Assembly: GCA_921293015.1 (NCBI GenBank) | Contig: OV121090.1 | Span: 19,048,304 to 19,112,303 of the forward strand | Reading direction: 5' to 3' | Source: Phorcus lineatus | Taxonomy: Eukaryota; Mollusca; Gastropoda; Trochida; Trochidae | Length of the DNA stretch: 64,000 nt | In this document: positions 25,486 through 57,390 of the stretch, in pieces | Numbering within the stretch: the first letter of the stretch is position 1 | Layout: each line of letters opens with the position of its first letter | Position numbers and translations under genes: made by a program | Notes under the pieces: generated by a model | Database searches by the model: none | The model's input: only the letters and a program-made list of their open reading frames with translations | Told to the model about the DNA's origin: nothing

Positions 25486-26604
25486 TTAGTATGGATAACA
25501 GACCTTATCTAATTTCAACCTCCTCAACAATTTAATTTGTTTGTGGGTAGCGTTTCCAGTTGTATCGCTATACCACGGCGCACATGACGTAGAACCTGCC
25601 ACATAACGAATTTTTTTGAACATTTTGTACAAAAGGCCCGCATTATAATGGCTGTCTTTGTGAGTCATCCCTTCGAAGTTTCCTGCTTTTGTTGTTTGGT
25701 GCAGCGCCAATACCGTCTTTGTGGCGTCAATCACAGAATACTTCTGTTTACAGGAATTGAGCACCAACCAGTTGTCATAGGCTCGTCTTCCTATGACAAT
25801 GCCAGGAATTTCAGACCAGGGATATGAGGAATCGGTAATGAAATAATCCTCAGCTATTGTCATAAACAATTTGCCTCTTTTCTTGGCAACTTTGGCTAAA
25901 TTATGCACCTCACTTTCCGCCTCGGTAACATTCATAACGTTAGTCCTACGTCCTATTATCATGATAGGTTTGTCCTCTCTCAAAGTTGTATTTGCAATGA
26001 CAAGTAATGTCTTTATAAGTCCTTCGTCGAAAAGTATATCACCATTTGAATATCCATAGAATAAAGACTTAAATTTCGGGACCACGTCCATGTACATGTA
26101 TTTTAACACAGGTATACCGGAAGCTGCAGTTTTGCTAACCGGAAGTACATCCCAACCATGTTTGGTGACTTCATCGAAGTTCGTTCCATTGCTGCCAAAG
26201 AATACTGGCCTGACAAGCGGTTTGAAATGAGCCCAGTTTTTTAATGTCATATTTCTTACTTTATACTTGTTGTCATTACTAGGCCATGTTGTAAATAACG
26301 TCAAAAGTGGGATGATATCTGGTATTTCGGTGGAATTTTGGACATCAGTGTGATTGTTATCGCCAGTAAAGTTGAAAACATACTCGTTTAATTTTAAGAG
26401 CGGGAAAAAGCTAGGTGACCGCTGAGCCAAAGAACTGAAATTGAATGGTTGATGTAGACGTAAAATGTGCGATGAAGGTTTGACAATGGGGAAGTTGTAA
26501 AGGTAGACGTTTACGACGGCGGAAAGACCAAAGAGTCCAATAATCACACGAAGCCAAGTCCGTACATTCAGAAGTTGGTTGCAGCATTGTGACGGCTTTC
26601 CCAT
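25486..26604 (-). CDS. Type II membrane GT-A-like glycosyltransferase, paralogue 1
   Basis: The frame encodes 372 residues from an ATG with no internal stops. A short cytoplasmic tail (1-16, Cys/Arg-containing) precedes a single membrane segment at about 17-36, then a variable stem (about 40-97) and a lumenal catalytic region. Likely catalytic motifs are NGDILF (187-192, a DXD-like metal/sugar-nucleotide site with Asp189), IIGRR (216-220), EDYF (252-255), IGRRAYDNWL (271-280), DATKTV (293-298) and LHQ (301-303). This series resembles uncharacterised nucleotide-diphospho-sugar transferases, so a Golgi sugar transferase is inferred; donor and acceptor are unknown. Nine N-glycosylation sequons (for example NFS 55, NGT 139, NTT 205, NAT 351) support a lumenal domain. 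A splice acceptor (TTTCAG, AG at 26,622-26,623) lies 18 bases before the ATG, so an upstream exon is likely. It is the paralogue of 56,272-57,390. Confidence 0.88.
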   Translation of the reverse strand: MGKPSQCCNQLLNVRTWLRVIIGLFGLSAVVNVYLYNFPIVKPSSHILRLHQPFNFSSLAQRSPSFFPLLKLNEYVFNFTGDNNHTDVQNSTEIPDIIPLLTLFTTWPSNDNKYKVRNMTLKNWAHFKPLVRPVFFGSNGTNFDEVTKHGWDVLPVSKTAASGIPVLKYMYMDVVPKFKSLFYGYSNGDILFDEGLIKTLLVIANTTLREDKPIMIIGRRTNVMNVTEAESEVHNLAKVAKKRGKLFMTIAEDYFITDSSYPWSEIPGIVIGRRAYDNWLVLNSCKQKYSVIDATKTVLALHQTTKAGNFEGMTHKDSHYNAGLLYKMFKKIRYVAGSTSCAPWYSDTTGNATHKQIKLLRRLKLDKVCYPY

Positions 26605-26621
26605 CTCAACGGTGGTCAGTA

Positions 26622-26636
26622 CTGAAACATATAAAT
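26622..26636 (-). promoter_or_regulatory. Probable splice acceptor upstream of paralogue 1
   Basis: On the minus strand the sequence ATTTATATGTTTCAG ends at 26,622, followed by exon sequence TACTGACCACCGTTGAG and the ATG at 26,604. The same acceptor occurs in paralogue 2, and the frame stays open through it in both. This implies a 5' exon that I cannot locate for this copy. Confidence 0.6.
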
Positions 26637-26714
26637 AGATATCATATTTCTATTGCATAAAATATTTGCATTTTCGATAAAAAAAAAAGACAGATTTTAA
26701 AGGTCAACCTCGGC

Positions 26715-27145
26715 TTCCGAGACCGTCCCGTATTTTTCTCCCATAAACTGTCTCAGATTCTCAATCGGATTCTCGACCGGCATTACACTTTGAATAACAC
26801 ACGGAATCTCTCTCTCGGAATATTTCTGAACAATCTTTCACGTCCACATAACCATAACGGATTTAATCTGGACCTACTCTCCACTACAAAAACAACGGAT
26901 AGTTTTAGATACACATTTCATTACCAACTTGCAAAATCATGTGCCGTTGTTACTTTGGCATGACAGTAAATATTGTAATTCACACTTTTTTCTCAAATGA
27001 AGTGTTCGTTGAGCGACGGCGGCGTGTACGAGGGAAAATCAAAACGTTCGTGGAATACCATAGACAACTTTATCAAAGAACCAATTTCTTGTCATTTTAT
27101 ATTTCAGCATAGTCCCCGATGATAACGATATATTTACATCAGCCA
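26715..27145. other. Unique sequence upstream of paralogue 1
   Basis: This lies beyond the end of the segmental duplication and is unrelated to the upstream region of paralogue 2. I see no first exon or promoter. It runs into a broken mariner copy. Confidence 0.5.
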
Positions 27146-27149
27146 TGTT

Positions 27150-27560
27150 CCAGCTTCATAAGGAACAACACTCCTGCACTGAGCTTGCCTCGCCGCTTGC
27201 CCTTGATTGATGCCCTTAAATGCATAAATTAATTAGCATGATATGCCCCGTTAATAGTTTGGCCATTCTCAAAGTGCTCCATAACGACGATACCCTGTCC
27301 ATCCCAAAAAACGAGTCTATCATCTTTCAATCAGACTGAAGTCGCTTGAAATTTTTGGGGTGGGGAATTGGTATACTTCCGGTCCACTGTTTCTTTTGGC
27401 CTTTATTTATGAGGGGTGAGAGGGTCAAAGAGACGTACCCATGTTTAATCCTGGGTCACTAATCTATCAGGAAATTATCCATGTCTGGCCTGAATTATGC
27501 CGTAAGTTCCTTGAAATGTCCAAGCGTTTCTGTTGCTGGTCATCACTTAACACTCAACAC
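27150..27560 (-). pseudogene. Mariner transposase fragment, disrupted
   Basis: Minus-strand translations in shifting frames give recognisable mariner blocks. FWDGQGIVVMEHFENGQTIN (about 27,250-27,310) is followed by SIKGKRRGKLSAGVLFL (about 27,160-27,214), and an upstream piece around QKRLDISRNL lies near 27,500-27,530. Stops and frameshifts break it, and the catalytic C-terminal Asp is not found intact. It lies just upstream of paralogue 1, so it may have altered that gene's promoter region; that is inference. The plus-strand ORF across 27,441-27,740 is a shadow. Confidence 0.8.
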
Positions 27561-27989
27561 CATTCTTTGCACCCACCCATCATGCGGAGTCATTATATCT
27601 GTTGGGATAGGTTTATGTTTTTCAAGATAGTCTTTTATAAACATTCCTCCCCAAATATGGAGTGTGACCATCCCAACATCATTAGCATTGAGGTTAAGTT
27701 AAAGTGTACCTGTTTTAAATACCATTTTACTGACCCTTGAAGTTCCGATGGCTAATCCAGTTATTACTGCAGCATGATTGAGTGTGTATTCAAATTTTTG
27801 GGTTCAGACATCTCTCTATTTCATATGAAATGCTTTTTTCTTTAAAGAACCATCGTCTTCAGAATTACGTATACACCTTGGACAGACATGTCTGGATCTT
27901 GAAATACGAACTCAAACTCCTATTCCTATTCCTATAACACATATCAAAATAGGAAATAATACGTTTCCATGATTTATAACGACGGTTTG

Positions 27990-28110
27990 CTGATCGCTCG
28001 AGTATTTTGCGGTGCATTCTGCTGTGCATTCTGTAGTGCACTCAGCTGTTCAATAAGTTGTTCACGTTTTAATTTCTTAACCATAGCCCCCTTCTTACCA
28101 GCAGCTACTT
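27990..28110 (-). pseudogene. Degenerate coding remnant, basic/Gln-rich
   Basis: The minus strand reads about 40 codons without a stop, including KKLKREQLIEQLSALQNA and a Gln/Asn-rich stretch, preceded upstream by a stop. Composition is clearly protein-like against this background. Its position beside a Polinton ATPase remnant suggests it belongs to the same element, but I cannot name the product. Confidence 0.4.
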
Positions 28111-28459
28111 TTTAAAGGAATTTTTTAAACTGTAAGTTTTGGGGGTGTTTATTCACTCGCTTCCAGTGTAATAGTTTCTTATGGAGGGATTTTCTCTGAT
28201 TCCAACATCTTTTTTATCTAAACTAGTATCTTTGAAATGACAATACTTAGCAGTTGTTATAAACTTTGTAAGCAGTGCTAGGAACATCCTGTATCTATAG
28301 TAAAGCTGAAATCAAGTTTTTGTTTATAGTATTTTCAATAAAAGGGTCTTTTAGTTTTGGGAGGTACATATAAGAAGTACCTAACAGCAGTCGAAAATAA
28401 AAGTAGCAATGACTTTCCTAATGTCTTAACCATAAGAGCACATAACCTACGTTCATATT

Positions 28460-28640
28460 TCTCGTATTCTATTAATACTTCTTCATCTGTCATTCTATTT
28501 ATGCTCTCTGTAGAATTTTTTCCCTCTTAAATTCAACTGCTTCAGGGTTAAGTTGTTCAGAAAGAAATTGTTGGAAATGAGCAGGGAATTTGTCAATTTA
28601 GCCTAAAACTTCGTTGATATTCATTATAAAAATTAGAGAT
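28460..28640 (-). pseudogene. Degenerate coding remnant next to Polinton ATPase
   Basis: Minus-strand pieces such as FQQFLSEQLNPEAVEFKREK and, one frame over, MTDEEVLIEYEKYE look like real protein sequence with a frameshift and stops between them. They lie about 0.15-0.3 kb from the start of the ATPase remnant, on the opposite strand. Probably part of the same decayed element; identity unknown. Confidence 0.4.
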
Positions 28641-28784
28641 CATATGTCTAAAGCAAGAAATAGCGAGAAAATAAATATAGTGAGAAGTACCAAGCGGATA
28701 CCTAAAATCATTAAGATTATAATAATTATTAAAATATCCAACATTTATATATATTTAAAGGTTTATTCTTAAATAATAAAGGAT

Positions 28785-29270: not shown

Positions 29271-29329
29271 CGCAAAATTGGTACTTTGTTTGGTACAACG
29301 TCATATATAGTTGCGAAATGAGAGAATGT

Positions 29330-29485
29330 AGAAGGTATAAATAGGGTTTCTGGATAAGCGATGAGTAAAACGTATTTCCTCAATAACCATTGCAGAGAAA
29401 AACTGCGGAGTAGTTTTTGTGTAATGGTTAAATGAAGAAATACGTTTTGTCCTCCGTTGGCCCAGAACCCCTATTTATACCTTCT
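29330..29485. repeat. 156-bp imperfect hairpin
   Basis: AGAAGGTATAAATAGGG at 29,330 is inverted at 29,469-29,485. Further inward AAAACGTATTTC and AAAAACT are also inverted. The centre is near 29,408. It follows directly after the Polinton ATPase remnant. It may be an independent MITE or folded terminal sequence. Confidence 0.75.
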
Positions 29486-31069: not shown

Positions 31070-33965
31070 CAAGAACTAGATTCTATTGACATGCTAAAAG
31101 TACAATGAAGCTTTATTTCTCAACAACAAAATACCTAATGGAATATTAATGCATCTTTTTCTTGATAGGGTACCGACATCCAAATTAGTATTTCTTCCTT
31201 TTATTTGCATCGAATAGAAAACAATTATTAAGAGAAGAAAGTGTGTAAATCGTGTACAAAATTGTATTTTCCAGTATAAATTTTATCATTTAACTTCAAA
31301 ATATTTCAGAGCTTTAGTCAATCGAAATGACTCTCTATCAAAACACTTTAATGTCATTTAAAAACAAAAATACAAGAGTGATCGCACAAAACATTTTTTT
31401 TCGAATGGGTGCAATTGTTATAGTCAACAATATTTTGTGATGGTTGTTACGGATATGGTGGACATTGTACAATATTCTACTCCCTATTCTATTTACTAGT
31501 ATTTGCTATATTTTATTTATCATTTATTAATATATTTGTTATATTATGCAGAAATTCTACAGCAGCATACCGAAAATCTACTTACTTAGTAGTGTATCGT
31601 AATTGAACATATCTGTAATTTGTCAGTTTGACAGGTCACCTGAGTAACTGACAAAGGGAACAGCCATTGTCTATGAGTAATATTACCACTTCAATTAGTT
31701 TTCGGATCGTCCCGTTCGTGGTACACAAATTCGAATTTTGGCATCATGAATCAGACAGAAGGGGTCATGTTTCTGAAATTCATAGTTGCTTAAATTTCGA
31801 TAATGACATTCCATATCGACCCTCTTAGAAAACAATCAGCACAGTTACTTTGACTTAGTGCAAAAGTATGAAAAAAAGGCTTATGTTTAGAGCTATTACT
31901 CACGTATAAGAAATTTTAAGAGAAAATTTCCCCATCATTTTCACTTCATTGACCTATCAAAACTGATAGGTATTCATATTCGAGAAAGCCTTTCTCATTG
32001 TTCTATAGCAATGGGGATTCCTTCTAACTGTTATCTGTGTTATGGTGTTATTGAAATGTTGATAAAGAAAATCTAAAAATAAGATTTATCAGTTTTAATC
32101 ATGTAATATCACGATCTTCAATGTTAACACTTAGTTTTTAAATTGTTTTAGGATAAGTATGTCTTAAATTTTTGTTGAAGAACATTTTTTAGGTATTCGT
32201 GTTAGGTTTATAAAAAAATTTCCTATTGATATGGCAATGTAAATGTAAATGTTAGAACTAAATGTAATTGTATGAAAGGATGGAAAATGTTGCACTTATT
32301 AATTTCAAATGGAGCTTTCATTGGTTTGGATTCTTCATGATACATTGCAGCCTGAATTTTATCACTTATTTTATTATAATTTGCTCTTATAACATTCATT
32401 AAACTGCTATGATTATCATTTCCGTTTGCTGTAATTTTTAGAATCGGAGGAACGCACAATTGTTGATTTATTTCCTTTTGCTCTTTTCACATTCGTACTT
32501 TGAAAGACTGGCTGATAACCATGATGTCACAATATATGCTTGTGTTTTAGAAATACGACGCTCTGGAGCTCCATTCCTTCATTGGTGTAATTCACTTGTG
32601 TCTGTATCGCTGTGAAATCGTTTATAGTTAGGTCACGACGATCTTTTTTCCAAAGTGGGTCGACGCCTTGTAAGTTTTTGAGGGGTATTTATATTTAAAT
32701 GTTAAAGCTGAATTTCATTACTCTTGCTCTCTATCATTGAAATCAATAAATCTCAACTGTCATTCAATGCCTCTCACTACCAAATCGTTTAGGGCAGATT
32801 ATTGGGACTACGTTACGTCAGTCATAGCGACCACTATTATTATACACAATATTATTATTATTGTAACGTTATCATGACAAAAAACATGCAAGCTGAAAAA
32901 TCATATAAACTTTATTACACAACAAGGTTGCAGCAGACATACTGCCTCCTATATTATATATAACAGGTTTGAAATGTATCAAAGTTCAGAATAATTCTTC
33001 TGATCCTCTAAAGGTCGTACATTACTCAAATGGCTAACGCCATAATAACCTAAATAATGTACAAATTGATATTATCTTTTATCAAAAGAAAATATTGCAA
33101 TTCATGCCGTTTTGACAACACTTTTAGCGTCAGGTATTGAATGAATTATTCACAGTGTTCTGATTGTTTTTGCTTTTTTATATCAGATCGATTTTGAGTA
33201 CCAAACATGTGAGAATTCTTAAGGAAACGAAATATTATTTATGTAAACTTTCCTGGTTGTCTCAAATGACTATAGCAAATGATAAGCAAGTACATGACAT
33301 GACATTGTTCTTGGAGACCTTTTTGCTTGTTATTTTATTGACATTGCAATTTGATACATACAGAATACTAAACGACGTCCAGTTTGATAACATGTTTTGT
33401 GAAACGAGTGATTGTTTTGGTATTTAACGAGCGAAAACCTGTTTTATCACCATATAATTCACATAATTAAACGGGAATAATTTATGTATTTTATTAATTA
33501 CTCGCTGAATTATATCTAAAAGAATCAGCACTCGATGTCATGACACAATCTATAATAATATAATAACATTATAGATATATTAAATGGCGGTATCTTCAAG
33601 AGGCGAGTATTAAAGTCAGCTTATATCCCTCATATTTGAGGTAAATGTATATACATGTATCTATCTATATCAGCTCATGTGTGATTTATTCATTACCCTG
33701 TTGACGTTAAATTAAGTATTCGCGAGAGAGAATGCAAAAGGAGGATACGTTTAATAACATTTTTATGAAACGACCGAGTGGTTTGGTATTTAACGACCGA
33801 AAGCGAGTTAGATACCTATACCATTCACAAGGTTTATAAAAGTGAAATTAAACGGGTTTGGATTATTTATTTCTTTATTACATGCTTATCATTTATGTCA
33901 TCAGTGAGAAAACCCATCTGACGATAGTTTCGTGACATCAACAAACCTTCCTGTTCATTTACTTG
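31070..33965. repeat. Nested direct duplication, first copy (about 2.9 kb)
   Basis: Begins at CAAGAACTAGATTCTATTGA and is collinear with 38,691-41,989, with long blocks at over 90% identity by eye. An example is 32,560-33,060 against 40,582-41,070, and 33,540-33,965 is almost identical to 41,560-41,989. The join ends at CCTGTTCATTTACTTG in both. No ORF is conserved across both copies, so it is probably non-coding or a non-autonomous repeat. The stretch 32,100-32,400 differs from the second copy by replacement or indel. Confidence 0.88.
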
Positions 33966-33989
33966 ACCCTAACAGCTTGTTGAACACTG

Positions 33990-35000: not shown

Positions 35001-35325
35001 CAGTTTAGATAACTAACTCATTAACGCCGAGACATCTTCACGGCTCATCGCCTGACAGCTGACCAAAGACACTGCTTGCTGTAGCGAGACTAATTAACTC
35101 AAACCATCTCTCATTTGGCGACAGTCTTTGAGTTCGAGAAATGAACGGAAACTGTCTAGCCGTGTACTATAAAGTCTTGATTGTTTTATAGTTTCATGGG
35201 CTGAATATGAATATGCAGGGGCTGAATATGAATATTTTACAGGAATATAACATATGATTATTCACAATGAAGGTTTTCTTTGCGGTTTGTCCGATTTCAT
35301 TTCAGTAATATATTAATAGATGTTC

Positions 35326-38690: not shown

Positions 38691-41600
38691 CAAGAACTGG
38701 ATACCATCGACATGCTAATAGTACAATGAATCTTTATTTCTCAACAACATAATACCTAATGGAAAATCAAAGAATATTTCTCTAAATAAAGTTACGCCAT
38801 CCATATTTTTGCATTGAATAGAAAACAATTATTAACATATAGCAGTGTGTATATCGTGTACAATATTATATTTTCCAATATGAACTTGATCATTTAACAT
38901 TGAAATGTTTCAGATGTTTAGTGAAGCGAAATGACCCTCTATCAGAACACATAATGTAAAAATAAAAATAGAAGAGAGATCACAACAAATAATATATAAT
39001 TATCGATAAGCGAGGTGTAGAAGCAGGCATTTTGAGATACAATTTCTATTATTTTTCGAATGGGTGCAAAAGTTATAGTCAACAATATTTGTTATGGTAC
39101 TTCAATATTCTACTCACTATTCTATTAAGTTGCTATTAGCAGATATTAGGAGCATACCGAAAATGTACTCACTTACTAGGGTATTTTAATAAAACATATC
39201 TTTAATTTGAATTTAGTTTTACAGTTCATTTGAGTAACTTCAGTTCAGCTTTCAACTAGTTTTGTGGTACATGAATTCGAATTTTGGCATCATGAATTAG
39301 ACAAATTTAAGTATTTTTTGCTAAATTTCGATTATGATTTTCCATATCGACCCGATGAGAAAACAATCAGCTTAGTTACCTTGACTTAGTGCACACGAAT
39401 AAATAAGACTAATGTTTAAAGCTGTTTCAAGTGAATCTCGTAACCCAAATGCAATTGAAGGAAGTGTTCACGTTTTGCCCAGAAAAGATCTACCAATGGA
39501 CATTCAAAGTATACAACTTGTTGTTGTCAAGTTATTTCCCTTTAAACATTCCAGTTTGGTATATTAGTACGTTTCAAATACTTTAACTGAAAATCTTGAA
39601 GTTTAATATCTTTACAGCACTTTCTTGGATGTCTAAAATGTTTTTCCCCAATGAAGATCTGTTTCAAACATTTGTTACTGTTTGTTACAAATATTTGGCA
39701 TATGGTCACTTTGTAAAAGTGTATCGTATATCTTTCGAGAGCCCTAAGAAGGTTTGATCCATTCCATTAAAGAATTATTGATCTTAAGATCATAAAGACA
39801 GTCCGAGTTAAAATTGTCTATAACATTTTTCCATTCTTATTGATCTAAAATATGTACAATTCAAACTTTATTTTCAAACGAGTTTCTTTTCGTGACACCA
39901 GTCTCTGATGTTGTGAACTCCCTTTCGGAACCAGACTTCAAAAAACAATAGATGGGTCTGCACACTGGTGATTAAAACAAAATCGCATTTATATCTTTTA
40001 AATATGTTATATGTGATTGGTAATAATTGCTCCAAGTCCATATCAACTCCTGCCAAAATGGGTTTTTAGTCGTACATAGACTGTAAGAGGGAATATGGAC
40101 ACCCAAAAAGGAGTCATAATAAAAAAAAATAGCTGTTATATTCATTTTTGTTCATGTTGATTTTAAGGATGTTTTAAGGATTTAACTGAATGCTATGACT
40201 CGTATCAAAAGATGCATTTGATCTTGTAAAATTCATTACAATTGCGAAAGAAAACTGATATCATTATCATTTCCGTTTGCTGTACTTTTTAGAATCGGAG
40301 GAACGCACAATTGTTGATTTATTTTCTTTTGCTCTTTTCACATTCGTACGTTGACAGACTGGCTGATAACCAGGATGTCACAAAATAGCCTCAGTATTTT
40401 TAGAAACAAATAATAGTTGGGGGCGGAGTTTAAATTCAAAACGGATGTAGATGACAATGTTTCTTGAAGTTTAACATTTCACAATGTATTGATGTCATGG
40501 AGTGCACAGTCTATAGGAGAAACCAGTTAATGCTTGCTTCACGTGGCTGTATACAACTGGTGTAACCTCTGGTGCTATCACGACGCTCTGGGGCTCCACT
40601 CCTTCATTGGTGTAATTCACTTGTGTCTGTATCGCTGTGAAATCGTTTATAGTTTTTCTTTTTTTCAAAGTGGGTCGACGCCTTGTAAGTTTTTGAGGGG
40701 TATTTATATTTAAATGTTAAAGCTGAATTTCATTACTCTTGCTCTCTATCATTGAAATCATTAAATCTCAACTGTCATCCAATGCCTCTCACTGCTCTCA
40801 TCAGGGCAGATTATTGGGACTACGTTACGTCTGTCATAGCGACCACTATTATTATACACAATATTATTATTATTTTTACATTATCATGATATACAACATG
40901 CAGGCCGAAAAATCATATAAGCTTTATGACACAATAAGCTTGCAGCAGACATACTGCCTCCTATATATAGATATAACAGGTTTGAAATGTATCAAAGTTC
41001 AGAATAATTCTTCTGATCCTCTAAAGGTCGTACATTACTCAAATGGCTAACGCCATAATAACCTAAATAATGTACAAATTGATATTATCTTTTATCAAAA
41101 GAAAATATTGCAATTCGTGCCGATTGAAAAATATTTTTATCGTCAGGCATTGAATGAATCATTCACAGTTTTCTGATTGTTTTTGCTATTTATATCAATT
41201 CGATTTTGAGTACCAAACATGTGAGAATTCTTAAGGAAACGAAATATTATTTACCTAAACTTAACTTTTCCTGGTTGTCTCAAATGACTAAAGCAAATGA
41301 TAAGTAAGTACATGTGATGGCATTGTTCTTGGAGACCTTTTACTTCTTATTTTATTGACATTGCAATTTAATACATACAGAATACTAAACGACGTCCAGT
41401 TTGACAAAATTTTTGTGAAACGAGTGATTGTTTTGGTATTTAACGACCGAAAACCTGTTTGATTAGAATGATTACCATACAATTCATATAATTAAACGGG
41501 AATAATTTATATATTTATTTACTAATCGCTGAATTATATCTAAAAGAATCAGCACTCGATATCATGACACAATCTATAATAATATAATAACATTATAGAT

Positions 41601-41989
41601 ATATTAAATGGCGGTATCTTCAAGAGGCAAGTATTAAAGTCAGCTTATATCCCTCATATTTGAGGTAAATGTATATACATGTATCTATCTATATCAGCTC
41701 ATGTGTGATTTATTCATTACCCTGTAGACGTTAAATTAAGTATTCGCGAGAGAGAATGCAAAAGGAGGATACGTTTAATAACATTTTTATGAAACGACCG
41801 AGTGGTTTGGTATTTAACGACCGAAAGCGAGTTAGATACCTATACCATTCACAAGGTTTATAAAAGTGAAATTACACGGGTTTGGGTTATTTATTTTTTT
41901 ATTACATGCTTATCATTTATGTCATCAGTGAGATAACCCATCTGACGATAGTTTTGTGACATCAACAAACCTTCCTGTTCATTTACTTG
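38691..41989. repeat. Nested direct duplication, second copy (about 3.3 kb)
   Basis: Direct copy of 31,070-33,965, offset by about 7.6 kb at its left end and 8.0 kb at its right end. It contains segments missing from the first copy, such as about 39,430-40,240 and 40,395-40,575. After the shared end at CATTTACTTG this copy continues into a TTCAATGATTCAG-type repeat, whereas the first copy continues into mariner DNA. No protein is conserved between copies. Confidence 0.88.
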
Positions 41990-42224
41990 CCATAATTGAG
42001 GGTTATGTTTAAAGAACTTTCAATGATTCAGGTTTGATTTAAACATATTTATTCATGAAAATGTACAAGTCATAAATGGATTGGCCAACAAGCTCCTAGG
42101 TGCTTATTTTAAGGCCGCTCCGAAACAATTATATATGAGAAAATATATATACAACTTTATGGTAGTGACACATATCTGATTGCAGTCATATCTTCATAGA
42201 TAGTGGTTAAGTAGTAAATAATGA

Positions 42225-44720: not shown

Positions 44721-45157
44721 TCTATCAAGTTATCAAATTTAAATAAATTATTTAAATTATCCTCAGTAACATGTTTCGACTATGTTGTGTTACAATAATG
44801 TACTCATAATATGTATATACAGGAATATACCCTTGAATTTTGTGTCCACAAAAATACCTCGATAGCCAATGTCCTTTTAAATAGATTGTCGTTTAGTCTC
44901 GTTGCTAATTTTGTATGGCTATATTGAATAAGCGTAATACTGCTGCACGTCAAGATAATACTCAAATTAATATTTTGAAGATGTGATTTACCTACAAATA
45001 ATACATATATTACATTTTGATAAAAGACAGGCCGAAGAAGAACAAGTTTTTATGCATAGTCAACTTCTTTATTGCATGAAATGTAACATTTCCGTGTAGA
45101 TATTAACATGCGACGTCGATTTAAAAAATCTTTCATTCGAAATGCCTCAGATATTTC

Positions 45158-46400
45158 TGTATGCTTTCGGAAAGCTAAGTTATATTTGACTATGCGCTTT
45201 GCAGGTTGAATGATACAGCACATTCGTCTAATTTAGTAACTACATCCATTCAACCTCATTGAATATGCCTGTTTGACGACACATATGATATCAATGCATG
45301 CGATGTTTCTATTGGCTTTTAAGTTTGTTTATGTTGCAATATTTACCAACCAGGGGAACGTACCGAAAACTGGGAATAGCTCGTTTTAGAACAGAAGTTG
45401 TATAGGAATTAATGACGGAGCTACCTCTGTGGGTAGAGAATGGGTAGTCCCTGGTTCTTCCATTAATGACTGAATCGTTGTAAAATATCCACTGCTTCAC
45501 TTTTTGCATAATCGAATGTAAGATAAGATCATCGGAAACTCGGAGTTTTTTTTTCAAAAGCTAATTTCGCCCACGTGAATAAAATATTTTTCTCCAAACA
45601 GAAAAAATGTAAATGTAGGTATTTTTGTATTCAACGACTATTACAAGTAGGTCGTATTTCTTGATAATTTAAAATTATACAAGCGATGAAATAGTAAATA
45701 CAGATGGCGCCCTTAGATTGTTCATTTCTGACTTGATAATGTCTAGCAAGAAATGTGAGCATCTCAAAGGAGAATGGACTGCGGTCATCTGATCATGAAA
45801 GGTTATTGGAACAAAGCTAAAGCCCAGGGCCTCCTTTCACAAAGCCCTAAGGTGATCGTAAGTCCTTAAGTTAACCTTAGTGCAATGTTAAAATATGGGA
45901 GTTAAGATTAACCTTAGTTAAGGTAGCTTTGTGAAAGCAGGCCCAGTTTGAAACCATCTCGCTGATTCCACTAATCACTAGATTGCAATGAATCAAACTT
46001 CTTTTTTCTCTATCATAGGGAATTCTGATTTGTAACAGAAGTTAGGTGGGGAGAAAATATAAGAAACGGGTTTGAATTTTCAGTTCATCAAAGTTATGAC
46101 TTTTTTCGACTCAACTACTTCAAATGCATCCGTTTTTCTCATACTTTTCTCATACATTCTTTTGAAGTTATATTGGGGATCAATTTGACCAAAGCCTTCA
46201 CAAAGCATTCTCTCCCAACAGAGGTAGCTCCGTCGTTAATTCCTACACAACCTCTGTTATAATAGGTGCTCTGCTCGAGCTTCCGGCAGTTTCCCCTACC
46301 TGCACAATATTGCAACATAAACCACTTTGCAATGACTCAAATTGCAAATAGCATATTCGAATAAAGTTTAGCTTTCCGAAAGCATACGGAATTGACTTGG
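45158..46400. repeat. Inverted-repeat (foldback) region inside copy B
   Basis: GTATGCTTTCGGAAAGCTAA (45,160 on) is inverted at 46,366-46,385. Likewise GTTTATGTTGCAATATT near 45,325 is inverted at about 46,305, and AGGAATTAATGACGGAGCTACCTCTG near 45,402 at about 46,215. Arms extend about 200-290 bases with roughly 75-80% identity and enclose a smaller MITE. A related single arm exists in copy A near 18,960-19,060. Minus-strand ORF 45,309-45,557 is a by-product. Confidence 0.7.
45827..45944. mobile_element. 118-bp palindromic MITE
   Basis: Ends GGGCCTCCTTTCACAAAGC and its near-complement GCTTTGTGAAAGCAGGCCC are inverted. Inner pieces (AAGTTAACCTTAG, TTAACCTTAGTTAAGG) also pair. It sits in the loop of the larger inverted repeat. 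MITEs with TTTCACAAAGC ends are, as I recall, widespread in marine invertebrates. No target-site duplication longer than two bases is clear. Confidence 0.75.
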
Positions 46401-48389
46401 GCAATTTGAACGATAACTTGGAAACGGCATAGCTAATTCCACAACTAACTTTGATTGCATCCAGTCAGATTTCTACATTGCTAGACCGAGAAACGTTCAT
46501 ATTATTACAGAGGTTGTATGGGAATTTATGACGAAGCTACATGTACCACTGTTGGAATGTCAGAAATGGGCTTTAGCACGTTTTTTTTGTAAATTTTGTT
46601 CATCCCATTTTCCCAAAGAATCGTCAGTTTATGCTAAATATTATCTTCAGATGGTTTAAACATCCCATCACTCAACTAAATCAACCGTAGTCTTAGAAGA
46701 AATAATCAACTGATAAGCATAATTCACTGGCGGCCATTTGGGAATAATTTCGCACTTCATGATTTACATATAATCCTAATTAATGATTGGTTGACAGCAT
46801 GGTCATGTGATTTAAATTTCAGAGGTTCTTTTCCCATGAACTCTAACACAAATTTTCATATTTGTGTAAACCTTCCCTAGTCATCTATCTATCTATGTTA
46901 TAAATTACGCTTTATTAAAACAGTCAAGAAGGTGTATAGAAATACCAGTTATCTGTCACGAGATGAGATAAAATCCATCGTTTAGCGAGGATTGTAACAC
47001 AAATTATTCACGATTGACTTTTGACAGTGATCAGTTGTTACCGTCTTAGGCAATTTCAGTATGTGTCATTTATTCTTAGACAGTTTTCTACTACGTGTTT
47101 TGAGTTGTACCGGCTATTTAATGCCAATACGAAAAGGCCTTTATTTCTTTTGTCATCAATAACATTGAAATAATTTCTGACTCGTAGGTTTTTTATATTC
47201 TTTTGTCTGTGTGATTATCTTTCAGATGGAGTTGTATGATAAGTTGTTCTTGAGTTAACTCTTGACTAGTACACGTGAACATTTGCAAACTTTGACCATT
47301 TACTATTATTTTTTCCATTTAGGTTGAAATGGCTTCACAGCAACATAGCGAAGACGCGATGGGAATTGGGCTATCAAAGGTACTCCGGTTTTCGCCATAC
47401 AATTGAAAAAACAAAACAGCAAATGAACCAAAGTTAAATTCGTCCTGCAGGTTTTGTAGATGATACTTGAAAAATTAAATCAACATAAACAATTTTAAAA
47501 CAAAAAGTTTTAAAGACGTGTGCGAACGAAATTTAACATCCTTTTTCGAGAACTCGAGTTATATATTGTTCAAATGTCAGTAATGAAAAGAAATTATTAC
47601 CATGAAGAACATTTTAATAAATGCATAATTGAAAAAGGCTCCTATACCCCGTGACCTACGATTATGTCTTTTACTCTGCAAATATAAAGTAAGTCTACGC
47701 CTTTCATACATAGGTACTTTTGTTTAGGGCAGTCGTTTTGGCGAGATAATGTGTGAAATGAAATTAGTAATAAATCATATCAATAAAGATAAGAATTTAG
47801 CCTTTTGGCTACCTCCAAAATGAGGAATATCATCTTAACCTCGGGCTAAACTTAAAATGAGTTTATGTGTTTTGGCACATGACAATGATGATTATCTTTT
47901 ATGCCTCGAGTAATAATAACAGTTATTGACAGAAGACTATACAATGTGGTTATATTTTCATGTCTTTTATAAAAACCGAAAAGCTGATCAACGAATTATC
48001 TTGCAAGGTCAAACATTTTCAAAGGCGGTGTGTCAGGAAGTCAGTCTTAGTTTTTCCATGGAATAATTGATTCATTGCTATGACTGAATATTACGTCATC
48101 ATTTTGAAGTCGAAAACAGTATACATGAAATGTATCTCGGATGACTGAAGATCAAAACTTGTCATTTTTTTATTTTCCACGAAATACTTTGGGAATCACT
48201 ACGTGTTGTCCTTCTTTGCTTTATTCAAATGAATTTACCTTTATCGGGCAATTTTTAAGTGCAGAGGTTTGACGGCCAAACGTCTGTCGTTTAGATTCGT
48301 TCTCAGTGTTGAAGATATATGAACGATATTTCGGTAAAGCAAGGTATTATGGTTCCTTTTCATTCCCATGGTTACCTGTTAAATTGAGT

Positions 48390-50063
48390 ACGGTTGGACA
48401 ATCTCTTTTTTTATAATTTTCTTTTTTGTGAATCACATATTCCGTTCAATACACTCAATACTTTAACACTGTTTGATTTACAAGCAGTTGTTTGGAAAGA
48501 TAGGTACATTCTAAACAGAAATGTACAAAAAGAATATCAAAAAAGGTCATGACATACCGACCAGAACTTTATGAAGTTTTAATATTTACAGTTTGAGTAG
48601 GCATTAAAGCGGTCAACATAGCACATTGTCTTAATGTCTTCTTTTACGTGTTTAAAGTTTGGTATTTTTTCCTGTTGTTTCATTTTGTATATATTGTATT
48701 TTACGACAATCATTATCAAATTTAGGACATAGTTTCTCTTTTCGCCATAACCTAAAATAACGTTTTTCCTAGTAAAAGTTATATGACTTTCTGTTTTTTT
48801 TAAAAATCCATTCTCCAAGTTGTTCCCAAATATTTTTGATGACCTTACATTCATAAAATAAATGTAAAATTGATTCTATCTCGGATTTGCAGAAAGTGCA
48901 TTTATTAGATTTTTTGTTGATCATTTGTTGATCATTTGTTGGCAGAAATCTATGCTGTATACTGTATTGGAACCAAGAATGTTTTACACTGTTGTACGAC
49001 TTAAACGTCAATTTTTCTATGAGTAAGTCATAATTGTCTCTGCAACCCTTTGGTTCTCCAATAATGTTTTGTAACAGAAAAAGTAAAAGTGGGAGCTGGA
49101 TTTTCTTTTCAATATGGACATTTATAGTTTTGCAGTAGTATTTGATCGCTTCAATTATTTCCTGACATTCTAGAAAGTTAGTTTTGCATCCAACTTATGT
49201 TATTTGTTTAGCGTCTAGAAATTTCCCTCAGCAATCAAACATATCGTTGATATAAGTTATTCCTTTACATGAATAGTGTTTATAATATATTGGTTTTCCA
49301 ATTCATTTAACCATAAAGGTTGTGCTAGAACATCTGTTGCATTTTTAGCATTTTTGCTGCTTGTTTCGTTATGAATTTTCCCCATGCCTTTAAGGTGTCT
49401 TTCCAGAAATGGCTTGTTTGTCGAGTTATCACAGTTTTAAGTATGTGTTGTTCGCATGTCTTTATAAAGCTATCAATGTCGTGTTTCATATTTATTTGTG
49501 CTAATTTCCTTGTTTTTGAATCAGAGCTGTTAATTCTTTTCATCCATGATATTTTTTGTGATTGAATAATACTTGTTATATCTGGGGCTCTTATGCCCCC
49601 TTGTTCATAATCTTTAGTAATAGTGTCTCGACTAACTTTGTCAGGTTTGTTTCTAGTTCTCCATATAAACTTAAAGCAGAGTTGCTCTATTTCTTTTATC
49701 ATTTGTTCATTCGGGTTTGGTAAAGCTGCAAATAAGTGATTAAGTTGTGGTAAAAGTAAGCTTTTTAATATAGTATTTCTACCTAAAGGAGTGAGATTTC
49801 TGGCCAACCACTGGTTCATAGATATTTTCAGAGTCTTAAGTTTATCTTTATAGTTGCGTTCTACCATTTCTGCGAGATTGTGAGTAAGAATAACCCCTAA
49901 AAGGGTAAATGTATCATTCTCCCAATCAAGATTCCAATTCGTGCAAAGTTTTCAATCCGAGTTTTTTTCTGAGCCTACCTGCGTTTTGTTAACATTTATA
50001 TTTAAGCCTGAAAACGATGCATATTGACAAAGAGTTTCTAATGTTGGACGGTTGGACAATCTC
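48390..50063 (-). mobile_element. 5'-truncated L1-like retrotransposon with 16-bp target-site duplication
   Basis: The duplicated sequence ACGGTTGGACAATCTC occurs at 48,390-48,405 and again at 50,048-50,063, enclosing about 1.64 kb. The minus-strand 3' end abuts a T-rich tract on the plus strand (48,406-48,430), matching a short poly(A)-like tail. The minus-strand 5' end begins abruptly inside reverse transcriptase coding sequence. Copy A has the unfilled site near 21,337-21,370. Tail, truncation and target-site duplication are the hallmarks of target-primed reverse transcription. Confidence 0.93.
48579..50045 (-). pseudogene. L1-like ORF2 C-terminal half, disrupted
   Basis: Reading downward from 50,045 the frame starts in the reverse transcriptase (SGLNINVNKTQ). 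After a stop it passes through LLGVILTHNLAEM and the block WLARNLTPLGRNTILKSLLL (about 49,760-49,820). Next come FKFIWRTRNK and EQGGIRAPDI, then a region ending in a zinc-knuckle-like segment, CTFCKSEIESILHLFYEC (about 48,850-48,910). One in-frame stop near 49,968, another near 49,324 and a frameshift near 48,800 break it. The endonuclease and catalytic palm are missing because of the 5' truncation, so it is inactive. The motif series fits L1/Tx1-type elements. Confidence 0.88.
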
Positions 50064-50524
50064 ATTAGCTATTGCTTTTTTAAGAACAAAACCTCAGGTA
50101 TATGTGTCTTCAAGGTAGTCTATTACTGTTTATTTGCATTCCGATATTATAATTTGTGTCGTTTCCATGGTTACAAATAGCAATATGTTTGGCTTGAGGA
50201 ACGTTATTTGGGTGAGGTTTTAATGCTTACTTGCAATTTTATATGTTTTAAAGGTCCTTTTTGTTTATTCATTTTTTTTCCATTCCTATCTGCGTAACTC
50301 GATTAACTCGTTTATGTTTTTAACTGATAAACAATAACAACTCTAATGGGCCTTATTGGTGGTGTATCTCTTTAACTGTGACATTGATGTATAGAGATGT
50401 CAACGAGATAAAAAAAATACCGTTCCCCGACAGGCTGAATTGGAAACCATTTGTGCGATGTAGTTGTAAATTGAACACTTGAAGTTTTAAGGTAAGGATA
50501 AGAGGGAAGAAAATACTTGAGAAG

Positions 50525-51345
50525 AGTCATAATTTCGAAGTTCTATAAATCAAAATTATATAGGTTCCGTTTAACGAAATGACCTACATCTGTGGGTATA
50601 GAATGCTGTGTCTGTGGCGTTGAGATACTCAAGCAATCTCTTAACAATTTGGGCTGGCCGCCATTAGTTAAAGATAACCAATGTCCACGGTTGAAAAACC
50701 GAGGATAGGTCCTATAGTGAATGTATTTGTCGTCTTTACCAGTGACACAGGCATACATGCATAATTGTGAAAACCTTAGGGGAAGAAGAAAAGAATTATA
50801 GTTCTTAGGTGATAATCTCATCTTCAGTATCACATGAAATACAGGAAGGAAAAAATCTTCCAAATACTTAAGTGATTTCTTCCCATGCTCTGTAACAGGT
50901 TGGTCATGTTAGAAAAGAAGAATTTCAGCTGAACATCTTATCGTCATTATCTCAGGGACGCAGGAATGCCACACTCTTTACTACTAAAGTAATGTATACC
51001 CACGCAACCTCTGTCACAAGTAAAAGAAAGAAAAGAACAGTTCTTTTTGTGATAACTAATGGTCGGTATCTCAGGATCACGCGAAGGCCACTCTCTCGCC
51101 TCTATGAAAACAATTTCATGAGATTAACTTATCTAACTTATCAACTTTGTCAATATGAATCACCAGGATGATGCTCTCTATGGAAACGTCGACTTTGTTA
51201 AATAAAATATTAATGATTTTTAAGTTTTAATTTTGCTTGTGGGTTGTCACATTTACCTTTGAATTCTTTTTCATAAAATTTTCACATCTGACTGTTCATT
51301 TAAATCCACGATTTTTCCTACTTGGAAAATGAAAACAATTATCTT
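50525..51345. repeat. Copy-B-specific insertion of about 0.8 kb with internal repeats
   Basis: In copy A the junction reads TACTTGAGAAG followed directly by TGTCTGGATTG (about 22,470-22,491). In copy B about 0.8 kb separates the corresponding halves, flanked by GAGTC on each side (about 50,525 and 51,339), a possible 5-bp target-site duplication. Inside are two or three degenerate repeats with a core like ATCTCAGG-CACG-GGCCAC (about 50,950 and 51,070). No transposase. The ORF 50,543-50,863 shows no motif. Confidence 0.5.
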
Positions 51346-51530
51346 TGAGTCTGGATTGCCTTTAAGTGAATATTTTGTGGGATAATGTGGAATTATTTTT
51401 TTTAAATGAAATATATTTCCGTAATATACATTTAGTTGAATGAAAACATATTGAATTCATGATTTTCAAATCTTGCTTGGTTTTTATTTGATAAATATTA
51501 TTAGATTGATTATAAGATGAAAAACGATTG

Positions 51531-51618
51531 AACGTCAATATGCATTATGTTCTAGAAATAAACGTCAATATGCATTATGTTCTAGAAATAAACGTCAATA
51601 TGCATTATGTTCTAGAAA
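51531..51618. repeat. 30-bp triplication specific to copy B
   Basis: AACGTCAATATGCATTATGT plus TCTAGAAATA is repeated exactly at 51,531, 51,561 and 51,591 (period 30). Copy A has a single diverged counterpart near 22,670-22,696, so this expansion postdates the segmental duplication. Confidence 0.93.
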
Positions 51619-54600
51619 GGCTAGAAAGCTGCAGTATAATGTACTTGTAAAAGAGGTTGCGTTGGTAGACATGACTGTCGTAGAAGGGAGCTGATTGTAT
51701 TGTGAAGAATATTGATGTTTCGTGCTGGTTGATATTGCTAACAGTCATATATTTCAGCAGAAATTAGAAAACAAGTTGTCAATGAAAAATTATAATTTAT
51801 ATCCTTTAGCGCGTATGAAGACTGAATGTGAGGAAGAAACTGCATCGCTGTTGATTTCGACAGGGAGAAAAAGAAAACTCAACCAATTTTTACTTTCAAT
51901 AAAATATTTTAATGCAAATTTAAATTTCATAGGTTAACCCTCGGGTACAAACTCTCTCGTTGCCAATGTAAGTCTTTCATAAAAATCGTACAACATACTG
52001 CATTTCGATTTCAGAATTGGGTTTTAGGAAAACATAAAATTCATCATTTTAATTCTTGTTTAGAATTCAGCACAAAAGAACAATTATCGACTTCACGACA
52101 TCACTTAGATTTTAATCTACATTAATCAATGAATGTATTTATGAATTTATGAATTAATGAATGCTGTATTTAATAACCTTAAACATATTCATCAGGGCCA
52201 AATCAACCGTGCTCCTGGCGTTCTAAACCAAAAGTATATATAAGTTTAAAAATTTGCAATCTCATTGCTCTTGAGTCATTCAACAATTCGGATGCCATTT
52301 AGTACACATGAATAAAAAAACTCACAAAGTAAACTCAAAATCTAAACACACGACACGTTCTCCGTGTAAAATGTGTTTGTTGTAATGATTGAAGGCAATG
52401 ACGAATTTTATGGCGCAAGAACATGTCCTTTATTACTCGGCAAATACTTTTTTTACAGTTTTCAAAGTCGCAATAGCTTTGTGGGAATCAATGTGATTTA
52501 TTTCAAAGGTCACGTTTCACTTCAAACATGATGTAAGAAGCAAGTACGGTTGCCATGTTTCGATGGAGATTCGAAATGTTTGCCTCCTTATCCAAAACCA
52601 AAGTCCAACTGCTATTATCGCGAGAGGATAAGAAGGACATCGAATTGTATTACGGTTAAGTTTTCAGTGAAAGATATATTATATGTACCATATTATTCCT
52701 CAAGATTCTAGAATAAGAAATATGTGTTAACACCAAAATTTATGCTGTAAGATCACAGGGAAAGAAATATTTCATGGAATGTTTAGATCGCCATCAGAAC
52801 CACATACAGTAAAGTCTTTTAAGGGCATTTTGAATTGCAAAAACGCTATCTTCTGAGTAAGACCTTTTACCTTTTGATAAAACGGGCTTTCATAGTAAAT
52901 GCCTTATCCCTAAACAGAAAAAAAGCTTATTTATTTTTAATGTATTTAAATGATGGACTGGCAGTGAAGATGAACTCTCTCTTAAAATGTTTCATCATAG
53001 ACTTCTTTGTATTACAAAAGTTGAACTTTGCTGAAACAGTATAAAGGAAAGGATGGGATGGAATGGTATTTTGTCAATGCGTCACACGCTTTCTTAGAAT
53101 ATTAAATAAATTAATGAATTATACAATACATTTGAAATATGCTTTTATGCTGACAGCTATAGCAAACATTAATTTATCAAGATATTTAAAGGAAATGTTT
53201 CCCATGCAGAAAATTATCATATTTTTCAGTGTTGTTCGATTCAACGTAACATTTGGAAAAATTCTTTAGTTTTAAAATCAGATTATCTGATTATATTTAT
53301 ATATATTTATATTTTGAACATAGGTGGACATTAATACAAACTTTTATGGCAATAACTTTTCATCAATGATTTCTATAGCATAGATATGTTAATATTTAAA
53401 TGATATGTAAAATGGCCTTTTTCCAAATTGAAAACTTAAACGTTCGTGTATGCATTTTTGAATAGGAAAAAGAGAAAAGATGTGCAAAGGAAAAATGAGA
53501 TATCTCTTACTTACGATACATACGTTAGGAGATGAAGTTCATAATAGTATATAAAAAAAATAGGAGTCAATGGTTGTGATATTAAATTGTGATTATTAAA
53601 TTTAATCTCCCCGGACTTTGATGCACGTTTGTCCCTTAATTACCTTTGATCATGTCTATACCCTTTGCTTATACTAGTTATTTAGTTACAATTTTCAGTT
53701 CTCGATCAGGTAGAGACATCGTAGCACGTTTTCCAAAAGGGAAAGAAAGGGAGTTAATGTAACGAAAACTATTATAACAATGCAAATATTATTCTATCAT
53801 CAATACAAGGATAATTTATAAGCACGTACTAAATCCAGATAAGTTCGCAAATTAATTTTCCAAACTCAATTGATTAAAAAATGTTCCCACTATACAGCCA
53901 ACATGCAGTTTGTGACAATTTATTCTACGAACTATGCTATGGATATTTTGGTTTATTAATGATATATCTAAGACATTGAAGAAAATATGTTTGCATAAAT
54001 TAATGATATACAAAACGTTGCACAGGGCCTTATGCAGTGCCTGACTTCTATGCTTTCTTTACATCTTCCCCGGAAGATTTTTAAAATGTTACACAATCGT
54101 TTAATTATTACTGTCTTAATTTACATTTGGACCTTCAGTTGTTGGGTTTGTCTTTTGTCAAGCTTTCGTTGGTAATTACGTTATGAATTGTCTATACCGA
54201 TTGTGAATTTATAAACCTGGTTGTTGATTGGACAGTCAGTCTGCTTATTTTATGATCCAATCTTTGAAGGATATCATATGGATCTGATTTACGTTTAGTG
54301 TGGAAACAGAAGTTGATATATTTGAGCCGTTTTTCACTACAATACATATTCGTTCTTCACAACACTTTGGAATACATAAACAACGGAAAAGAACACTCTT
54401 TTTTCACAACGTCAACGCAAGATACTGTGTTAAATACTATGCAATTAATTTGAGCAAACAAACTGAATCTAACAAACGATGTGACTTCGATTCGAATGTA
54501 CATATATGTATACACCCCCAAAAAATAAAATAAGATAAGAAGGTGTGTCCATCCCTGGCTGACGTCATGGTCAACTTCAGTCCTAAATATAGAACTTCAG

Positions 54601-56220
54601 GTTGTAATTTGGTTCGTTTTATACATTTGGTACAAATATTTATAAATAATTTTGTTACATGCAAGTAAAATCAAGATAATTAGATTTTCATTTCATTTTT
54701 TAAGAGCCTACCATATCTTATAAGTGAAATGACTATCATAAATTGAGCACTTCGTTAGCAAAATGACATGCTGACCTTCTCATCTGCATATTTACGTTTA
54801 TAAAACAAATTACTTAATCTAATGAAACGATACGTGTATGTTTTCAAGATACATGTTAATGGATATGGTGTATATTTTTCTGTGGTATTCTGTCATAACA
54901 GCACTTTTTTTGTACTTGACCTTGGTTTGAACCGATCTTGCAACGCAAAAGCGCTGTAAAACGTTTATTAGATTAAAGTGATTTAAGTTTTAAGACGTAT
55001 ATACAAAGTTCGTTTAGATTTCCCTTTCATTTATGTTAAGAAATTTTCACGTTACTTGATTGAGTTATAAAGTTTTTATAGCCTCTGAAAAATGTATCAT
55101 AAACCTTTGGTAAAAGGGGCAAATGAAACAAAAGATATTTCATAATATCCCCAATACTGAAGTGCCTTTTACTTTTAATCGAAACTATAGATCATCATAG
55201 AACCTTTGTTGTTTCTGCAAATTTGCAAAAGTTGCGTTGCAAATTTATATATTACCAAATTTATATTTTACCATTAGCCGTTCTAGGGACCAAATCTCTT
55301 TTCAACAATCCCCTGAGAAAAAGTCGATAATTAGGATTGTCTATTTCTACTAGCGATATACCAAACTCCTACATTGAAATATCTAGATCTGTTATCGGTG
55401 TTAGAAAATATAAGCAATTAAGAACCAACTCAGGTAAACATGCCGGTGGTAACAAATTTTATCAAACGATACCTATATTAAGTCTAGATTCATTTTTTCT
55501 TCACTTGTGAACATCTAAAGTGAAAAACTACAACGTTTATGTTATTGAGTTTTGCCCTAACCCCAAACTCGCAAACACACCTTCGATAAACAGTTAAGAT
55601 GACTTGCTGATCTAAAGGTTATCGGGAAGTCATAAACATATGAGAAAATCCGGCTTAATTTCAAAACCAGTTCCCGGATGATATGTACATGTGACTGATA
55701 AACCGGACTGAATGATTCAAAGCACCCACGGGGAATAAATAAACATAACGCTTTACGAATCAGCACCTACTTCAAAATATATTTGTGTTCTCTCGACCCA
55801 TGTTGGTCAACATTCAAAGATTCAAACTCCAATTTGTTTATTGTCATTGTGGGTCACCCATCTGTTTTAAGCCGCGTTGAAGTTTGCTGAACCATGAACT
55901 CGTAAAGACCATTTGTTAACAGAATCACAAAATCTTTTCCAGATCATCTTATCATTTTCCATTATCCAAACAGATTGCCTTGTTAGGAGTGTATTCGCCT
56001 ATACTTGGTGTATTCTTTCCTCCCTGACAAAACCTTACGATACATTAGGGGACCTGATATGATGTGATATGTTTGTTCATTTCTGATAAGCAAGAGTGAC
56101 TTGATAACAACAGTTAATCATAATGTGTCATTATTATGTTAAGTTATCACTCATACACAATTTCAGCATAATCTAAACAATTATACAGAAATAAAAAATA
56201 AATATATAACAACAATCGCA
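51619..56220. other. Non-coding part of copy B downstream of the gene
   Basis: Matches copy A (22.7-25.4 kb) in patches. Stretches at about 52,930-53,815 and 54,235-54,540 are absent from copy A and are AT-rich without motifs. ORFs in them look like chance. A GAGACGAAAA block at 56,255 and the preceding 25 bases are conserved with copy A and probably represent 3' untranslated sequence. Confidence 0.5.
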
Positions 56221-56271
56221 CAAAACAACTCTCGTTTCTTCATCACAGATTTAGGAGACGAAAATGGTCAT

Positions 56272-57390
56272 TTAATATGGATAACAGACCTTATCCAATT
56301 TCAACCTTTTCGACAATTTAATTTTTTTGTGGGTAGCGTTTCCAGTTGTCTCGCTATACCACGGCGCACATGACGTAGAACCTGCCACATAACGAATATT
56401 TTTATACATTTTGTACAAAAGGCCTGCATTATAATTGCTATCTTTGTGAGTCATCCCTTCGAAGTTTCCTGCTTTTGTTGTTTGGTGCAGCGCCAATACC
56501 GTCTTTGTGGCGTCAATCACAGAATACTTCTGTTTACAGGAATTGAGCACCAACCAGTTGTCATAGGCTCGTCTTCCTATGACAATGCCAGGAATTTCAG
56601 ACCAGGGATATGAGGAATCTGTAATGAAATAATCCTCAGCTATTGTCATAAACAATTTGCCTCTTTTCTTGGCAATTTTGGCTAAATTATGCACATCACT
56701 TTCCGCCTCGGTAACATTCGGAACGTTAGTCCTACGTCCTATTATCATGATAGGTTTGTCCTGTCTCAAAGTTGTATTTGCAATGACAAGTAATGTCTGT
56801 ATTAGTCCTTCGTCGAAGAGTATATCACCATTTGAATATCCATAGAATAAAGACTTAAATTTCGGGACCACGTCCATGTACATGTATTTTAACACAGGTA
56901 TACCGGAAGCTGCAGTTTTGCTAACCGGAAGTACATCCCAACCATGTTTGGTGACTTCATCGAAGTTCGTTCCATTGCTGCCAAAGAATACCGGCCTGAC
57001 AAGCGGTTTGAAATGAGCCCAGTTTTTTAATGTGATATTTCTTACTTGATACTTTTTGTCATTACTGGGCCATGTTGTAAATAACGTCAATAATGGGATG
57101 ATTTTTGGTGTTTTGGTGAAATTTTGGACTTCTGTATGATTGTTTTTGCCAGTAAAGTTGAAAACATATTCTTTGGAGTTTGAAAGCGGGAAGAAACTAA
57201 GTGACTGCTGAGCCCAAGCACTTAAGTTGAAGGGTTGACGGAGACGTAAAAGTTGCGATGACGTCTTGACGATGGAGATGTTGTAAAGATAGACGTATAC
57301 GATGGTGGAAAGACCGAAGAGTCCAACAATCACACGAAGCCATGTCCGTACATTCAGCAGCCGGTTGCAGCATTGTGACGGCTTTCCCAT
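56272..57390 (-). CDS. Type II membrane GT-A-like glycosyltransferase, paralogue 2
   Basis: This gene encodes 372 residues from the ATG at 57,388-57,390. The open frame extends a further six codons upstream to a GTG, but those are probably read only if an upstream exon is spliced on. The architecture is the same as its paralogue at 25,486-26,604: cytoplasmic tail, membrane segment at 17-36, stem, and a lumenal domain with NGDILF (187-192), IIGRR (216-220), EDYF (252-255), IGRRAYDNWL (271-280), DATKTV and LHQ. By my alignment about 28 of the first 120 residues differ between paralogues, but only about 8 of residues 121-345. The stem is thus diverging while the catalytic part is conserved or converted. 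Several sequons are kept, but the stem set differs (for example NFT at 90 and NLS at 55). Enzyme activity, donor and acceptor are inferred or unknown. Confidence 0.88.
   Translation of the reverse strand: MGKPSQCCNRLLNVRTWLRVIVGLFGLSTIVYVYLYNISIVKTSSQLLRLRQPFNLSAWAQQSLSFFPLSNSKEYVFNFTGKNNHTEVQNFTKTPKIIPLLTLFTTWPSNDKKYQVRNITLKNWAHFKPLVRPVFFGSNGTNFDEVTKHGWDVLPVSKTAASGIPVLKYMYMDVVPKFKSLFYGYSNGDILFDEGLIQTLLVIANTTLRQDKPIMIIGRRTNVPNVTEAESDVHNLAKIAKKRGKLFMTIAEDYFITDSSYPWSEIPGIVIGRRAYDNWLVLNSCKQKYSVIDATKTVLALHQTTKAGNFEGMTHKDSNYNAGLLYKMYKNIRYVAGSTSCAPWYSETTGNATHKKIKLSKRLKLDKVCYPY

Follow-up and report, generated by a model that had tools for sequence, protein, structure and literature searches.

Two paralogous genes of the gastropod Phorcus lineatus, here called A and B, share a nearly identical catalytic core set between strongly diverged ends. 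They lie in a stretch of 64,000 nucleotides (the window; C16:19048304-19112303, contig OV121090.1, within a 958-Mb eukaryotic assembly) and encode members of a glycosyltransferase-like family. The mosaic is real, and partial interlocus gene conversion over the catalytic region is by far its best explanation, one that we regard as very probably correct.

Both genes are on the minus strand and intact, each consisting of a single uninterrupted open exon of 372 amino acids. Gene A occupies 25486..26604 (genome place C16:19073792-19074907) and gene B, 30,786 bp away, 56272..57390. Their proteins are 89% identical, and the coding exons, which align without gaps and are set within homologous sequence at either side, differ at 75 of 1119 nucleotide sites. 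Amino-acid differences are concentrated at the N-terminus, affecting 26 of residues 1-98, about the quarter of stem residues that an earlier note on this DNA had given, and 15 of the 274 residues from 99 to 372. At the nucleotide level, the N-terminal part of A (a short tail, a hydrophobic segment and the stem; 26305..26604, minus strand) differs from its diverged counterpart in B (57091..57390, minus strand) at 48 of 300 sites.

The distribution of divergence was analyzed with custom scripts on one MAFFT alignment. The segmentation used the silent sites lying between the acceptor region and 24560 (1259 sites, 224 differences), with coding silent sites restricted to degenerate third positions of codons sharing the first two bases and the encoded residue. 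The Bayesian information criterion (BIC) favored three blocks, with 22 differences in 101 sites at the 5' end, 7 in 245 in the middle, and 195 in 913 across the C-terminal tail and 3' flank. The corresponding rates are 0.218 (95% confidence interval 0.142-0.311), 0.029 (0.012-0.058), and 0.214 (0.187-0.242), placing silent divergence over the catalytic region about 7-fold below that on either side. The cuts fall at 26347/26341 and 25513/25510, delimiting a middle block of 26341-25513, and the likelihood ratio of the three-block model was matched by none of 300 shuffles.

Codon-based estimates follow the same pattern. Synonymous divergence (dS, Nei-Gojobori) is 0.305 in codons 1-110, 0.029 in codons 111-316, and 0.176 in codons 317-372, and nonsynonymous divergence (dN) in the same intervals is 0.127, 0.019, and 0.056. 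The 3' flank of A (24560..25485, minus strand) is homologous to that of B (55279..56271, minus strand, far limit approximate), with a mismatch of 0.22 and a Kimura two-parameter (K2P) distance of 0.261 between 24560 and 25435 (855 ungapped sites). The silent divergence of the stem is close to that of the non-coding flank, and the core is therefore the exception. Synonymous divergence is thus not uniform along the gene, the property that the earlier note had proposed to check. The stem and core differ in synonymous change with p=6e-7 (rounded counts), and a conversion-type test, which the same note suggested, agrees (maximum chi-square on synonymous changes, p=0.002).

Protein-level selection would be expected to reduce nonsynonymous change and leave synonymous change in place. 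Here both fall, which points to conversion: the nonsynonymous to synonymous ratio is 9:4 in codons 111-316 vs. about 30:20 in codons 1-110 (p=0.75), bearing out the earlier argument that protein selection is insufficient to account for the scarcity of synonymous change. The same note had imagined a stem free to diverge, a picture that does not hold, as its dN/dS of 0.42 shows that the stem is under constraint, without sign of positive selection. GC content at third codon positions shows no clear effect of the tract (A, 0.44 in the stem and 0.43 in the core; B, 0.48 and 0.42).

Lasting constraint on synonymous sites was examined by comparing third bases at four-fold degenerate codons of the core with those of other family members in this genome. 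Between A and B, 79 of 83 such sites carry the same third base. Agreement of A or B with ten other paralogues ranges from 0.16 to 0.45, and base composition predicts 0.25-0.30. Because nine of the ten match about as often as chance predicts, a lasting synonymous constraint is unlikely.

The surroundings of the genes provide the reference against which the core stands out. The first 0.9 kb or so 3' of the gene aligns between A and B, and collinear blocks reach back to 17769 and 44722, respectively, defining segmental duplicates in direct orientation at 17769..26642 (with A) and 44722..57428 (with B) that are about 63-86% identical outside the coding exon. The earlier statement that the non-coding DNA barely aligns was overstated, given the 22% mismatch of the 3' flank. 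A recent duplication of the whole segment is ruled out, since the flanks are collinear yet about 20-24% diverged beside the gene. On the upstream side, the ATG of both genes is preceded, at a distance of 17 bases, by TTTCAG, a probable splice acceptor. These 17 nucleotides of exon, the acceptor-like sequence, and roughly 90 bp of putative intron occupy 26605..26714 in A and 57391..57475 in B (both minus strand), the likeness having been judged by eye and blastn homology stopping at 26642. By eye, homology of the two loci fades about 90 bp into the presumed intron (beyond 26715 and 57476). Given where this homology ends, A and B may have different 5' exons and promoters.

Conversion is therefore supported by four observations: silent divergence is equal on the two sides of the core (0.218 and 0.214) and falls to 0.029 within it; nonsynonymous and synonymous differences drop in parallel; collinear homologous flanks are unique to A and B among the four members of the local gene array; and third bases match nine of ten other paralogues only about as often as chance predicts. 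A conversion is expected to leave a bounded tract of reduced silent divergence inside more diverged homology, in which both classes of substitution are reduced, with little sign of a lasting synonymous constraint that could mimic it. A and B show this pattern, with one of the ten paralogues (C15_17.70) above expectation in third-base agreement.

The limits of the tract depend on the sites used. With all coding sites, the best single cut lies between positions 300 and 301 of the coding sequence (CDS; window 26305/26304), and a three-block fit places cuts at 26248/26247 and 25655/25654. This leaves a range of about 26347 to 26247 for the 5' edge and of about 25655 to 25510 for the 3' edge, and a length of roughly 0.6-0.8 kb. 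Our outer estimate of the homogenized tract in A, from silent-site segmentation and the all-site cut, is 25513..26304, spanning the catalytic domain, and the narrower one, from the three-block fit, is 25655-26247; at the offset of 30,786, the counterpart in B, from silent-site segmentation and all-site fits, is 56299..57090 (all minus strand). The earlier proposal of conversion in the catalytic region is supported by the silent-site mosaic; its tract of about 240 bases is not. That interval, said to differ at about one site, differs at 4 of 236 (26035-26270 vs. 56821-57056; differences at 26206, 26248, 26262, and 26269), three of them amino-acid changing. Nor is a stretch of this size special, as within CDS 325-950 the 236-bp interval with the lowest divergence contains 2 of 13 differences, a value matched by 51.5% of 1000 random placements. 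The 13 differences in CDS 325-950 are compatible with a single rate (longest clean run, p=0.17), so one event suffices. In a five-block fit, which is not the BIC optimum, positions 25434-25478, shortly past the stop codon, show no difference in 45 sites from the 3' untranslated region of B, with strongly differing blocks around them; this could be another short stretch of conversion or a conserved element of the 3' untranslated region.

Several results weigh against conversion or loosen the case for it. Restricted to four-fold sites, the contrast is marginal (7/41 vs. 4/83, p=0.04), and a test of the longest interval between synonymous changes does not reach significance (p=0.10). On coding sites alone, BIC favors one breakpoint (522.2) over two (524.6), and the 3' edge is gradual, resting mainly on the flank, with the last 167 bp of the CDS differing by 7.8%. 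Within resolution, the 5' edge matches the point at which the conserved domain begins (IPLLTLFTTW), which is where a selection boundary would also fall; the coincidence may be due to chance or to selection keeping the stems apart. C15_17.70 agrees with A and B in third bases at 13 of 29 four-fold sites, over an expectation of 0.25-0.26. All of the evidence comes from paralogues of one genome. The C15 trio of recent family duplicates, finally, is an imperfect control. The pair 22.239/22.250 shows dS by quarter of 0.104, 0.029, 0.061, and 0.056 (6/62, 2/70, 4/69, and 3/56; small counts), without a step as steep as that of A and B, and the pair 22.250/22.262 has an overall dS of 0.008. The 2.1-kb gene block of the former pair (C15:22237888-22240027 vs. 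22249067-22251198) is, at 95.5% identity, more alike than most of its neighbors (most other collinear blocks, 81-91%), and therefore cannot serve as a clean control free of conversion; this block may itself have been converted.

Three other processes could in principle produce such a mosaic. Strong selection that includes synonymous sites, through codon use, an RNA signal, or splicing, could keep the catalytic region alike without any exchange; the position of the low-divergence part on a conserved domain and the third-base agreement with C15_17.70 are what one would expect from it. Against it, agreement of the core's third bases with the other nine paralogues is about at chance; amino-acid changes exceed silent ones in codons 111-316, and both classes drop jointly; and the C15 duplicates lack a comparably steep step. 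This explanation is already largely contradicted, and we consider it very unlikely.

Alternatively, the exon could have been duplicated a second time or inserted separately, as a retrocopy for instance; the structure of the gene speaks for this, as a single open exon could be carried by a cDNA. Against it, the tract starts and stops inside collinear, equally diverged homology, the acceptor-like sequence is retained in both copies, the stem carries the old divergence, and the exon is free of gaps. We therefore regard such an insertion as highly improbable, and a conversion templated by the cDNA of the sister gene, which is conceivable, would be a form of the conversion explanation. The remaining concern, also raised in the earlier note, is an artefact in which assembly collapsed, copied, or drew from another haplotype one of the copies. 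Our judgment is made on assembled sequence, which leaves this some room; but the copies are 30.8 kb apart on one 49.6 Mb contig, their tracts still differ (the 13 differences in CDS 325-950), and the 22% difference of the 3' flank appears far beyond allelic divergence. An artefact is thus disfavored and is the least probable of the three, with only a very small chance of being correct.

Under gene conversion, the course of events would be as follows. A segment of at least about 9 kb would have been duplicated in direct orientation long ago, leaving two copies of a glycosyltransferase-like gene, whose protein is probably anchored through its N-terminus. Much later, a non-reciprocal exchange would have copied about 0.6-0.8 kb, amounting essentially to the catalytic domain, from one gene into the other, while the N-terminal stem and the 3' flank would have kept their original divergence. 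Since then the tract would have gained about 3% silent change. If silent rates were constant, comparison of 0.029 with 0.26-0.30 would place the exchange at about one tenth of the age of the duplication. We infer the recombination mechanism, and a single event instead of several, from this pattern. For the direction of the exchange, outgroup states point both ways, the nearest other paralogues (48-59% identical in protein) being too distant.

What A and B add is a further example of a well-known process. A close published precedent is that of the mammalian alpha1,2-fucosyltransferases FUT2 and Sec1 (together with FUT1), for which gene conversion among paralogues is described (PMC4398370). There, as in A and B, the transmembrane and stem regions are highly divergent and the catalytic coding sequence is homogenized in part, and in leporids over much of its length. 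In contrast, that case covers many species and known enzymes with a tested effect on glycans and on virus binding, whereas A and B come from one genome, belong to an unclassified glycosyltransferase-like family, and are analyzed as sequence only. Among invertebrate duplicates, GOT1p1 and GOT1p2 of the copepod Tigriopus californicus likewise show mosaic regions of high and low divergence, which are ascribed to gene conversion (PMC3728101). Those genes encode a putative aspartate transaminase and were compared over several populations, with conversion apparently ongoing, whereas for A and B one event in one genome suffices.

A broader scenario, in which the catalytic domain is converted repeatedly and this is maintained by selection, the stems are held apart by targeting to different places or partners, and the family represents undescribed domain-wise-homogenized glycosyltransferases, strikes us as rather unlikely. 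A and B offer a well-bounded natural case of partial conversion, with two histories in one exon. A tree or clock built from the catalytic domain would be expected to date the duplication about 7-10-fold too young, judging by 0.029 against 0.21-0.30.

The family to which A and B belong has at least 12 matches in this genome. Besides A and B, C16 carries two more distantly related members, lying about 31 and 59 kb to the left of A, and a further two at 40.17-40.18 Mb; the other six are distributed over C12, C15, and C32. When the 12 catalytic domains are placed in a tree, whose midpoint root serves for drawing only, they split into two clades of six; A and B are sisters (94/95), and five of nine inner branches are unresolved. 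All 12 paralogues contain the motif NGD, and each of the 10 rows of alignment A5, among them the viral-contig relative described below, has N-x-D; this motif may represent a DxD-type metal-binding site. Eleven of the 12 members (the exception being C32_13.86, with the first Met of the frame taken as the start) have an N-terminal hydrophobic 19-residue window above 1.6, located within residues 17-38 in A, and A and B contain 9 and 10 N-glycosylation sequons, respectively. The N-terminal hydrophobic stretch would fit a stem-bearing type II Golgi protein, a membrane topology that is putative, as is the enzymatic function.

The glycosyltransferase label of the earlier note is not established by a family or structure match. 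Searches of Pfam, NCBIfam, and PDB sequences gave no credible match for A or B, and PHROG gave one, for gene B, weak and of primase type. The predicted fold of A, from a two-row alignment, reached a predicted local distance difference test (pLDDT) score of 30.4, too poor to use. Genome-contig scans yielded no family homologues, and tblastn of gene A yielded none in phages and plasmids. The only relative found outside this genome is encoded by one IMG/VR contig of 57.6 kb (L032:1524-2657); it aligns with the family at an hhalign probability of 98.2% (E 2.8e-14, 187 columns), and its own tblastn search in phages returned no match. It adjoins a PF03407 (Nucleotid_trans) nucleotide-diphospho-sugar transferase (L032:676-1536; E 5.4e-6, above the curated cut-off), and its other neighbor has a weak GT2 match (E 0.044, below cut-off), a gene context that favors a role in sugar transfer. 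The PF03407 assignment belongs to that neighbor: the A/B family itself has no match to PF03407, and hhalign of the family profile against the PF03407 neighbor was negative (probability 0.3%). "Glycosyltransferase-like" is therefore the right strength of label, a sugar-transfer function being only suggested. Similar sequences presumably exist in plants and bacteria. This small, unclassified family is worth annotating.

Two further candidates in the region were rejected. A four-copy segmental array was not upheld, as the members at 19.015 and 19.043 Mb share the gene with A and B and no collinear flank. A second converted tract was considered at 32352-33972 vs. 40186-41995, which are 93% identical over 1.4 kb, with adjoining blocks at 69-80% and no long open frame noted. 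It was dropped and not used as evidence, as it holds a dispersed repeat, parts of which recur elsewhere within about 238 kb of the genome examined (overlaps included, places uncounted).

An Rfam scan of the window at gathering thresholds gave no match. Other features were seen in passing. A repeat near 19.042 Mb matches window positions 21824-22449 in inverted orientation and has further copies elsewhere. On the minus strand, 48769-49951 holds two separate LINE-like open frames, of which 48769-49194 matches zf-RVT (E 1.4e-9). A palindromic TTATCTTGAAATTTCAAGATAA-type repeat forms two arrays, at 11126-11501 and 12429-12782, that are inverted relative to each other. To the left of the window, at C16:19018842-19037207, a unit of about 6 kb is present in three tandem copies that are 91-97% identical.

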